This document shows positions 14,204 to 64,000 of a stretch of 64,000 bases of DNA, in pieces (within the stretch, counting starts at the first letter, position 1; each line of letters starts with the position of its first letter). The DNA comes from Cylindrospermum sp. NIES-4074 (lineage in GTDB: Bacteria; Cyanobacteriota; Cyanobacteriia; Cyanobacteriales; Nostocaceae). The stretch lies in NCBI GenBank assembly GCA_003994795.1, contig AP018269.1, positions 992,001 through 1,056,000 on the forward strand. Direction: 5' to 3'. The position numbers were made by a program, and so were the translations under genes. The notes beneath the pieces were generated by a model, which had not been told where the DNA came from, made no database searches, and saw nothing but the letters and a program-made list of their open reading frames with translations.

Positions 14204-14950
14204 TTGAAACTCAATCAAGTTATAGCAGTTTTACAAACCGTTAAATCTAATTCTGCCAAAGCCAAAACTGCTGTTTATCATCTAATTCAAAAAACTCCCA
14301 TGTTTCAGGGAATTTCCCGCACATTTCAGCCAGTAGCTGAAGATGGCTTTGTCTATCCCCCAGAAAATCAAACACTGCAAATAAAAGCGGAAGATTTGCT
14401 GAGTCAATTTGAGCAAGCTTGTGCAGAGTTGTTTAATTTATGTGCAACTCAAGATTGGTCTAACGCCCAAGCCAAAGCTGATATAGTAGTTGATGGCACC
14501 ACAATTTTACGGGAAGTTCCTGTTTCTTACTTGCTGTTTTTAGAAAAGCAGTTAGCTGACATTAAAACCTTCATTTCCACGCTACCTATTTTGGACACTA
14601 GCGAATCTTGGGTTTATGATCAGCAACAAGAATGCTTTGCTACGGAAGCGAAACACACCACCAAAACCAAAAGAATAGTTAAGCCGGTGGTGCTGTATGA
14701 AGCCACAAAAGAACATCCGGCGCAGGTGAAAGAATTATCTGAAGATGTACCAGAAGGAACTTGGCGGACAGTTAAGTTTTCTGGCGCGATTTCCCAAGCC
14801 AGACAAAATGAATTGCTACGCCGAGTAGACAGACTGACGCAAGAAGTGATTTTTGCCAGAGAACAGGCTAACAGTTTAGAAGTTACCCAACAAAATCAAG
14901 TTGCTAGATCAATTTTCGGCTACTTGTTTGCACCGTCAAATTTCAGGTAG
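14204..14950 (+). CDS. Uncharacterised 248-aa protein encoded directly before a tRNA-like RNA
   Basis: The start is a TTG at 14204, preceded at good distance by a full AGGAGG ribosome binding site. The product is soluble and mixed alpha/beta, with no membrane segment or known catalytic motif. I recall clear relatives in actinobacteria and cyanobacteria (possibly the family now called DUF7873), sharing the opening KLNQVIAV, a GISRTFQP-like motif, the ADIVVDG segment, the PVSYLLFLEKQL motif, and the ending TVKFSG...NELLRRVDRL...FAREQAN. This is memory, not a search. The stop codon lies 6 nt before the first helix of the structured RNA region, so protein and RNA are probably on one transcript. 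A role in binding or handling that RNA is inference from position only. Confidence 0.75.
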   Translation: MKLNQVIAVLQTVKSNSAKAKTAVYHLIQKTPMFQGISRTFQPVAEDGFVYPPENQTLQIKAEDLLSQFEQACAELFNLCATQDWSNAQAKADIVVDGTTILREVPVSYLLFLEKQLADIKTFISTLPILDTSESWVYDQQQECFATEAKHTTKTKRIVKPVVLYEATKEHPAQVKELSEDVPEGTWRTVKFSGAISQARQNELLRRVDRLTQEVIFAREQANSLEVTQQNQVARSIFGYLFAPSNFR

Positions 14951-14979
14951 AATAATATTGGAGCATAAGTTTAGTTTCA

Positions 14980-15073
14980 GTGTCTAGAGGAGAATTTGTA
15001 GGTTCGATTCCTACTCCCCCGATTTAATTATTTACAACGGGGGATAGCCAAATGGTAAAGGCACTCCTGACAC
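14980..15073 (+). ncRNA. Circularly permuted tRNA-like module 1
   Basis: The 3' half of a tRNA comes first: AGGAG (14988-14992), variable AATTT, T-stem GTAGG/CCTAC around TTCGATT, acceptor TCCCCCG (15015-15021), then A. After a 15-nt linker comes the 5' half: acceptor CGGGGGA (15038-15044), TA, D-arm GCC/GGC with GG in the loop, A, CTCCT (15064-15068). The acceptor stem pairs 7 of 7 and the anticodon-position stem 5 of 5, so the halves belong together. The helix continues past the stem: GACAC (15069-15073) pairs with GTGTC (14980-14984), leaving a TAG bulge. No loop with U33 can be built. The elbow residues (T54, T55, C56, G18, G19, U8) are kept. Confidence 0.8.
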
Positions 15074-15159
15074 AATAAGTCTCATAAATTAGTTTTAGGC
15101 TATTGCTCCAATCTAAGATTAAAAATTCACCTTCTGCATCAACCTCTGTAGATTAACGT

Positions 15160-15234
15160 TAGTGGGACACGAGTTCAAATCTCGTCCGGGGATTTAAAAT
15201 CATTCCCCGGTAGTTTAGCGGTTAAACACCACTA
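15160..15234 (+). ncRNA. Circularly permuted tRNA-like module 2
   Basis: The same order as module 1, with different sequence. TAGTGG (15160-15165), a short variable GAC, T-stem ACGAG/CTCGT around TTCAAAT, acceptor CCGGGGA (15186-15192). An 11-nt linker follows, then acceptor TCCCCGG (15204-15210), TA, D-arm GTTT/AAAC with GG in the loop, A, CCACTA (15229-15234). The acceptor stem pairs 7 of 7 and the anticodon-position stem 6 of 6. A normal tRNA would have the D-arm half first. The variable region is only 3 nt and no standard anticodon loop is obvious, which argues for a mimic or a precursor needing unusual processing. Confidence 0.8.
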
Positions 15235-15530
15235 CTTAAAGATTAAATGTAAGGATTCAGGTGTTTGAAACCCAGTCACAGAGTCAGTTTCAAAATTGAA
15301 TTTGGGTTATTAACATACCTTTAGTCGCAATAAGAAACGAAAATATAGGCGTTACGTAATTCTTATTGAGAATAAAAATTTGTGTTTAATTCCCAGAAAC
15401 CCTTGTCAGGAAATGATTGTAGAGATTTTGATATGACCTGAATCCTTACGATTAAATTTACAGACACCGGAAATTAACTCGGCAGAAATTGTGAAACAAG
15501 CACCTAAAAGCTGATAACTTTTAGTTACCA

Positions 15531-15562
15531 CCCCCAGGCAAGGAAAGCGCCTGGGGGATTTT
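15531..15562 (+). terminator. Strong Rho-independent terminator of the RNA locus
   Basis: CCCCCAGGC (15531-15539) pairs perfectly with GCCTGGGGG (15549-15557) around a 9-nt loop, followed by ATTTT. It marks the 3' end of the structured RNA region and makes a defined transcript plausible. Confidence 0.85.
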
Positions 15563-63511: not shown

Positions 63512-64000
63512 TAGAACTGGCGTTTTAGGCGGTGGACGTGACCAAGAATCAAGCGGTTTTGCTTGGTGGTCTGGTAACGCTCGATTGATTAACCTATCTG
63601 GTAAACTGCTTGGTGCTCACGTTGCCCATGCTGGTTTGATTGTTTTCTGGGCTGGAGCGATGACTTTATTTGAAGTCGCTCACTTCATTCCCGAAAAGCC
63701 TATGTATGAACAAGGCTTGATTCTTCTACCTCACATCGCTACCTTGGGATGGGGCGTTGGTGCTGGTGGTGAAGTTATTGACACCTTCCCCTACTTTGTT
63801 GTAGGTGTACTGCACTTAATTTCTTCAGCCGTGCTGGGTTTTGGCGGTATCTATCATGCCGTCCGTGGCCCCGAAACCTTAGAAGAATATTCTTCCTTCT
63901 TTGGTTACGACTGGAAAGACAAGAACAAGATGACCAACATCATCGGGTTCCACCTGATTATTCTTGGATCTGGTGCGCTCCTGTTGGTGCTGAAGGCTAT
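63495..64000 (+). CDS. psbC: Photosystem II CP43 protein, 3'-truncated by window edge
   Basis: Translation from GTG 63495 gives [20 protein letters not shown], then the CP43 pattern [20 protein letters not shown], and [21 protein letters not shown], through to the window end (168 codons). The GAGGAGG ribosome site lies inside the end of psbD, and the genes overlap by 17 nt. This GTG start within psbD is well established in cyanobacteria and chloroplasts. CP43 is the inner antenna protein that also holds a ligand of the Mn cluster. Confidence 0.97.

Follow-up and report, generated by a model that had tools for sequence, protein, structure and literature searches.

What do two consecutive tRNA-like segments, each written with its 3' half before its 5' half, encode in a cyanobacterial chromosome? 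They lie on the forward strand of the window (the whole stretch of 64,000 nucleotides of Cylindrospermum sp. NIES-4074 DNA analyzed here), and the permuted order announced by the original prediction was seen directly, by a motif finder and in homologues. Module 1 (14980-15073) is made, in this order, of the 5' strand GTGTC of an extended stem (14980-14984), an anticodon-position strand AGGAG (14988-14992), a T arm (14998-15014), the acceptor 3' strand TCCCCCG (15015-15021), a 16-nt linker (15022-15037), the acceptor 5' strand CGGGGGA (15038-15044), a D arm (15047-15062), the anticodon-position strand CTCCT (15064-15068) and the 3' strand GACAC of the extended stem (15069-15073). Module 2 (15160-15234) comprises the anticodon-position strand TAGTGG (15160-15165), a T arm (15169-15185), the acceptor 3' strand CCGGGGA (15186-15192), an 11-nt linker (15193-15203), the acceptor 5' strand TCCCCGG (15204-15210), a D arm (15213-15227) and the anticodon-position strand CCACTA (15229-15234). 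All parts were both read directly and returned by the finder, except the two linkers, which were delimited by the finder. The halves were said to be cognate within each module, and they are: 7 of 7 acceptor pairs and 5 of 5 T-stem pairs form in each, AGGAG faces CTCCT and TAGTGG faces CCACTA. Linkers of 15 and 11 nt had been proposed; the second length holds, and the first is corrected to 16 nt.

To be counted by the motif finder, a stretch must have a T arm, a GG-containing D arm and a pair of complementary acceptor strands with a linker between them. At strict criteria it returned exactly two matches in the 64 kb, modules 1 and 2, and none in 60 dinucleotide-preserving shuffles searched on both strands. 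At looser criteria, one extra antisense match with 6 acceptor pairs appeared near a MITE-like insertion described below, and five shuffled windows gave 3 matches. Module 1 as a whole is further supported by covariation. ARAGORN made no call at either module, and no Rfam family reached its cut-off there, nor for the RNA in 12 + 20 further sources.

Both modules lack a 7-nt anticodon loop, as judged by sequence reading and by folding. In module 1, the anticodon stem has no terminal loop and continues into GTGTC/GACAC, then into a helix, P1, found by thermodynamic folding and by RNAalifold, whose forward-strand halves are ATTGGAGCA (14957-14965, about the 5' end of the RNA) and TGCTCCAAT (15104-15112). 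The RNA starts a few bases past the stop codon of a gene of the DUF7873 family (PF25283; 14204-14950, forward strand, 248 aa, Pfam E 5e-100), whose product is its proposed protein partner. A possible -10 element, TAGAAT (14948-14953, forward strand, by eye), overlaps this stop codon, and -10-like hexamers were noticed by eye just before P1 in several homologues; a promoter consensus scan of the region gave 3 sites against 2.1 in shuffles, which is not above chance. At the other end, a GC hairpin followed by ATTTT was read directly (15531-15557, forward strand). It was not called by a terminator consensus scan; in homologues as well, by eye, the unit ends with a GC hairpin and a short T run.

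Between module 2 and this hairpin lies the MITE-like insertion, 201 bp long (15249-15449, strand undefined), with inverted ends GTAAGGATTCAGGT/ACCTGAATCCTTAC and bordered by an 8-bp duplication, GATTAAAT (15241-15248 and 15450-15457). Further copies, several of them near-identical, are present elsewhere in the same genome, and blastn shows that the RNA of relatives is free of it. Judging from these sequences, the MITE is not an ancestral part of the RNA, and because of its insertion the window copy would reach about 600 nt rather than about 400. When the region was folded, the 621 nt, MITE included, gave z = -8.9 against 20 shuffles. Modules 1 and 2 are best described as two heads of one non-coding RNA of about 400 nt, and not as tRNA genes.

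Conservation of this RNA was followed with blastn and covariance models. Among 60 related genomes, blastn found uninterrupted homologues of the whole RNA in three (G001, G002, G024). A covariance model of module 1 built from four genomes, R1, reached E <= 0.01 in 58 of the 291 genomes of the order, a count that includes a second RNA group described further on. A second model, R2, derived from cyanobacteria alone (19 module-1 sequences), had matches at E <= 1e-4 in 26 of the 386 genomes of a phylum-wide draw, both RNA groups together. Of the 20 loci searched, 12 have a module 2 that is also matched by R1, and therefore both modules are of one architecture. In a separate scan of genome contigs, the carriers named among the matches listed are Limnofasciculus baicalensis, an Aliterella MAG, a Synechococcales MAG and an uncultured cyanobacterium.

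The homologues were searched for compensatory changes, and these were plentiful. In module 1 of 19 genomes, pairing of the acceptor cells is complete (100%), and double changes occur in each of the 7 acceptor pairs. Overall pairing in these 19 sequences, whose alignment was fitted to the structure, is 91.8%, and falls to 32-47% when partners are slid by 1-3 columns. Invariant stems, or a normal gene order in relatives, are thus both contradicted by the homologues. The helix just inside P1 is weak, with 71.8% of cells paired and no double change. Given 18 sequences and no structure, RNAalifold recovered P1 (six pairs), the T stem and six of the seven acceptor pairs in register; the D stem and the anticodon-position stem were not recovered from these sequences. 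Two variants were observed along the way. In L035 (genome G270), the module 2 linker carries a long GC-rich inverted-repeat insertion, suggestive of a further mobile element inserted into the acceptor loop. In one cyanobacterial subgroup (L223, L224, L225, L046), the module 2 T loop has changed by eye from TTCRANY to a CTCRT-like sequence, and the stems still pair.

We then asked how closely the RNA is linked to DUF7873, using 65 genomes hand-chosen as RNA-positive, second-group-positive or negative. DUF7873 was present in 31 of them, in one as fragments (G016). It was present in 27 of the 28 RNA-bearing genomes, or in 26 of 27 without G312, whose RNA was recognized only by inspection downstream of DUF7873. 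The sole RNA-bearing genome devoid of it, G274, has an RNA copy with a replaced 5' end. Conversely, among the 30 DUF7873 genomes other than the host of the window, 27 have modules by finder or model. In G238 these are on another contig than DUF7873; in G231 DUF7873 is a 175-aa frame spanning positions 70-242 of the profile. The remaining three are G137 and G154, where module 2 has by eye an altered T loop, and G078, where no RNA was found downstream of DUF7873. One DUF7873 genome belongs to a different order within the class (G362), and one to a different class within the phylum (G331). A DUF7873 match was also seen in a control genome of the Deinococcota, Deinobacterium chartae. In G183, genes for GNAT, weak AbiJ, hexapeptide and RibD proteins lie between the two RNA groups and give no functional hint.

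The protein itself is predicted with confidence by AlphaFold as a mixed helix and strand fold (mean pLDDT 91.4, pTM 0.67). A sequence search of the PDB gave two insignificant matches (E 0.34 and 0.99), and PHROGs gave no match for four DUF7873 proteins. When three DUF7873 proteins were submitted to PADLOC, a single weak match to KwaB of the Kiwa defence system was observed, for Vibrio phage D505 (L261; 17.6 bits, E 4.5e-4). The openly licensed PMC literature searched makes no mention of DUF7873.

Nor is the RNA confined to cyanobacterial chromosomes: it also follows DUF7873 in actinobacteria and in tailed phages. In tblastn searches, DUF7873 was found in 4 records of a plasmid collection (Streptomyces 3, Nonomuraea 1) and in 73 of 50,697 phage records, from phages of Vibrio (29), Gordonia (12), Rhizobium (12), Klebsiella (7), Serratia (6), Arthrobacter (3), Pseudanabaena (2), Rhodococcus (1) and Microcoleus (1). 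Ten of these 77 records were inspected in detail. Two modules with 7 of 7 acceptor pairs lie directly downstream of DUF7873 in six (L252-L257); the finder sees one module in three (L258, L260, L261), the model seeing two in L258; and neither finder nor model sees any in the Microcoleus phage (L259). Phage copies of the RNA are often near tRNA genes: of the 7 phages inspected that have modules, 6 (all but Pam2) have such genes at most 1.5 kb from DUF7873. The RNA occupies a stretch free of annotated genes in 5 of these 7 phages, and short hypothetical genes are annotated over it in the other two.

A larger set was taken from IMG/VR, where the best 80 of 356 stretches encoding DUF7873 relatives were used; 5 were too short and 9 were duplicates, which left 66 different loci extending 400 nt or more downstream of the gene. 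Although these were chosen by DUF7873 alone, 55 of the 66 had at least one 7/7 module within 700 nt downstream and 34 had two, compared to 1 of 132 control stretches. Of the 76 loci obtained by adding the 10 named ones to the 66 viral ones, 70 have a sense-strand match of the cyanobacterial model R2 in the 1 kb downstream, and 43 have two or more; 3 matches fell elsewhere. The six loci with no downstream R2 match were L259, L260, L268, L287, L327 and L335; in three of these, L260, L327 and L335, a module is seen by the finder. Once aligned, again by fitting to the structure, 116 phage and actinobacterial matches showed strong covariation as well, with 90.3% of their cells paired, against 55.6% when shuffled. 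The elbow residues that the original prediction had listed as kept are near-constant in this set as well: a TTCRA T-loop in 110, GG in the D-loop in 110 and U8 in 115 of the 116.

Parts of the RNA outside the tRNA-like heads are shared too. Downstream of module 2, 45 of 56 other RNAs have a hairpin with GGNUA in its loop, a feature present in 6 of 1120 shuffles, and the loop is GGAUA in 28 of the 56; the window copy and its nearest relatives (L002, L003) have GGAAA instead. Among 42 phage and actinobacterial RNAs with two modules, and counted with no control figure beside them, the P1 3' strand is present in 29, AUCGA before module 2 in 31 and UUAAA after it in 36. In a quick tree of DUF7873 (116 rows), cyanobacterial proteins are placed among those of viruses, and its well-supported branches cannot be reconciled with fewer than 3 label changes; rows from Rhizobium, Vibrio and Microcoleus phages are long branches. 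This placement suggests repeated movement of DUF7873 between phages and cells.

To our knowledge, few bacterial RNAs imitate tRNA, tmRNA and Y RNAs being those we can name. The recurrence of the present RNA with DUF7873 in bacteria and phages points to an RNA-protein system imitating tRNA that has remained undescribed. We consider it rather probable that it is a double tRNA-mimic RNA, partner of DUF7873 in a mobile two-gene cassette, and docking on the tRNA machinery. Structure, covariation, linkage and spread are shown by the data above, and transcription, DUF7873 binding, docking and purpose are deduced from them. In the RNA, each tRNA-elbow domain is inserted through its anticodon stem, with the acceptor stem closed by the linker. 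The T-loop/D-loop elbow and the 12-bp acceptor/T stack would dock on the ribosome, RNase P, or modification or degradation enzymes, and DUF7873 would bind the non-tRNA parts, namely P1, the motifs around module 2 and the GGNUA hairpin. The two genes would move between phages and bacteria as a cassette, and in phages the RNA might serve takeover or protection of translation. Such a particle would most likely be phage-derived. The linkage may instead reflect shared regulation rather than a complex. This RNA is found in two bacterial phyla, Cyanobacteriota and Actinomycetota, and in phages of several hosts; DUF7873 thereby gains a testable role, and phages may have a route to the tRNA machinery that is invisible to annotation. 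In the parts consulted of openly licensed PMC articles, including PMC5733544, PMC1242208, PMC3978253, PMC11472068, PMC8394870, PMC6340977, PMC10085705 and PMC7824862, neither twin permuted tRNA-like RNAs nor permuted tRNA genes in cyanobacteria are described.

The linkers are where the best of the alternatives applies. RNase P and 3' processing might excise them, giving a three-piece RNA with two CCA ends, charged with amino acids in the manner of a two-piece tmRNA, a possibility that we hold to be rather doubtful. Only linkers of modules whose acceptor (7/7) and T stem (5/5) pair completely were counted, related genomes not being independent. In phages, where they resemble the ends of pre-tRNAs, they start with NC[CT] in 73 of 91 cases and with NCCA in 38, with C at +2 in 76 and T at -1 in 61; in named actinobacterial and phage copies, NC[CT] is found in 13 of 15; and in cyanobacterial copies linked to DUF7873, NC[CT] is found in 29 of 45, NCCA in 12, C at +2 in 30 and T at -1 in 32. 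Closed, unprocessed acceptor loops are another candidate, though linkers of DUF7873-linked copies often begin with NC[CT]. Against excision, however, the two linkers of the window itself lack NC[CT], many linkers have NCT rather than NCC, T at -1 is found in only 5 of 15 named copies, and module 1 linkers measure just 5 nt in 13 other cyanobacterial copies. In the second cyanobacterial group, linkers have C at +2 in 13 of 34 cases and NCCA in 1 of 34, and UNCG-like tetraloops capping the acceptor occur in this different group of RNAs.

As for charging, a G3:U70 pair is the alanine signal of tmRNA. It is present in 16 of 45 cyanobacterial modules, any other position having at most 4 G-U pairs in either orientation, but in none of 91 phage copies and in 1 of 15 named copies; charging with alanine is therefore not general, and was set aside as a candidate, the pair being seen mainly in cyanobacterial copies. 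A fuller version, in which a phage-borne DUF7873-RNA particle of a new class has its linkers excised by the pre-tRNA machinery, and the resulting three-piece RNA, with two CCA-type ends, simultaneously fills two ribosomal tRNA sites (or two on a tRNA enzyme), cyanobacteria having acquired it from phages several times, seems to us unlikely.

In the permuted two-piece tmRNA, the 3' half of the tRNA-like domain comes first and there is no anticodon. In this tmRNA/SmpB system, as here, the 3' half is encoded before the 5' half (Prochlorococcus tmRNA, in the part of PMC1242208 consulted). In contrast to tmRNA, the present RNA has two tRNA-like domains and reaches the cut-off of no tmRNA model, RF04321 for permuted tmRNA giving 14.2 bits on homologue L033 where 47 are required. 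The host genome has an ordinary tmRNA elsewhere, and with no Rfam model at cut-off, identity with tmRNA was rejected.

The closest known fold, and a bacterial precedent, is that of YrlA, a Y RNA described in the sections consulted of PMC11472068 and PMC8394870 as a circularly permuted tRNA mimic. Rsr/Ro60 is held by the stem of YrlA, whose tRNA-like domain is a binding site for PNPase and a substrate of the modifying enzymes DusA and TruB (same part of PMC8394870). Both RNAs have D, T and acceptor arms in permuted order, a loop-closed acceptor stem and a module set on a long stem, and the modules do possess the permuted tRNA-like effector domain of a Y RNA. At relaxed settings and full length, the Rfam YrlA model (RF02553) scores module 1 at 29.8 bits (E 2.1e-4) and module 2 at 22.3 bits (E 0.031). 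These scores are nevertheless far under the cut-off of 69, which no sequence reached in the window or in the 12 + 20 further sources. The RNA has two modules in about 400 nt, where YrlA has one head; no ACUUG, part of the 3' strand consensus of YrlA, is seen by eye in its P1; and it has a GGNUA 3' hairpin and linkers often starting with NC[CT]. Membership among Y RNAs fails on the partner, because searches with a profile and with the host's own protein detected Ro60 in no more than 11 of the 28 genomes that carry the RNA (once as a fragment), against 27 of 28 for DUF7873, and its presence in the host's own genome does not show binding to the RNA. Ro60 is thus not correlated with the RNA, and was rejected as its partner. 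That the RNA is a bacterial Y RNA, whose stem binds Ro60 (Rsr) and whose heads tether PNPase or other enzymes, is in our opinion quite unlikely.

Still less probable, to the point of being barely tenable, are permuted tRNA genes proper, with halves rejoined into a translating tRNA as in red algae. Algal and archaeal permuted genes have their linker at the acceptor ends, 1-74 bp long (PMC3978253, in the part consulted), and this gene order, with cognate acceptor strands, is indeed that of the modules. An in silico test, in which the halves were put in standard order around made-up anticodon loops, ended in a tRNA call for module 1 in all 5 trials and for module 2 in none of 5. Whereas the algal and archaeal genes mature to translating tRNAs with anticodons, neither module has the anticodon loop of a decoding tRNA, the anticodon stem of module 1 extends into a longer stem, and the genome has 70 other tRNA-model matches; the kinship first proposed with these genes does not extend to two parts of a larger RNA. 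Finally, chance, a decayed tRNA operon or adjacent ordinary tRNAs read across a gap, with a negligible probability, are already contradicted: 78 of the 82 loose-pattern matches listed (80 loci listed, of at least 119 stretches) are indeed ordinary tandem tRNAs, with 2-6 of 7 acceptor pairs and 1-3 ordinary tRNAs, but the other four, all cyanobacterial, pair 7/7 and contain no ordinary tRNA, which ruled out adjacent tRNAs, and covariation (module 1 in 19 genomes, 116 phage and actinobacterial matches) and the 60 empty shuffles argue against chance.

Many weaker R1 and R2 matches belong to the second cyanobacterial RNA group, whose outer strand is ACTTGYGC. Its frame, GCGCCCTAAC.../...RACTTGYGC, encloses either a permuted tRNA with an anticodon hairpin or a tRNA-like unit in normal order. 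Members are L058 960-1260, in the host genome itself (G000:C1, about 2839560-2839860), L062, L061, L065 and L199; none was seen adjoining DUF7873, by inference they are perhaps Y RNAs, and they stand apart from the RNA described above. In the host genome, ARAGORN called a tRNA-Pyl(cta) at a normal-order unit of this group. Five tRNA-like units follow one another at locus L062 (G137); the finder shows four of them to be permuted, and Rfam one to be normal. Some units are capped by TTCG, TACG, CTCG or CTTG loops, and Leu-like permuted modules with an acceptor stem capped by TTCG, CTCG or TACG were seen in L199 (from 977), L061 (1725-1777) and L063 (665-717). Also in the host genome, L221 (1300-2170) is an array of normal-order tRNA-like units in which the anticodon arm is replaced by a stem CTTGCCT...AGGCCGACNAATTGAGGGTTATC, directly upstream of a Ro60 (TROVE) gene (L221, 2174-3775). 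At the edge of the window (63912-64000), Rfam reports a match to the antisense RNA IsrR.
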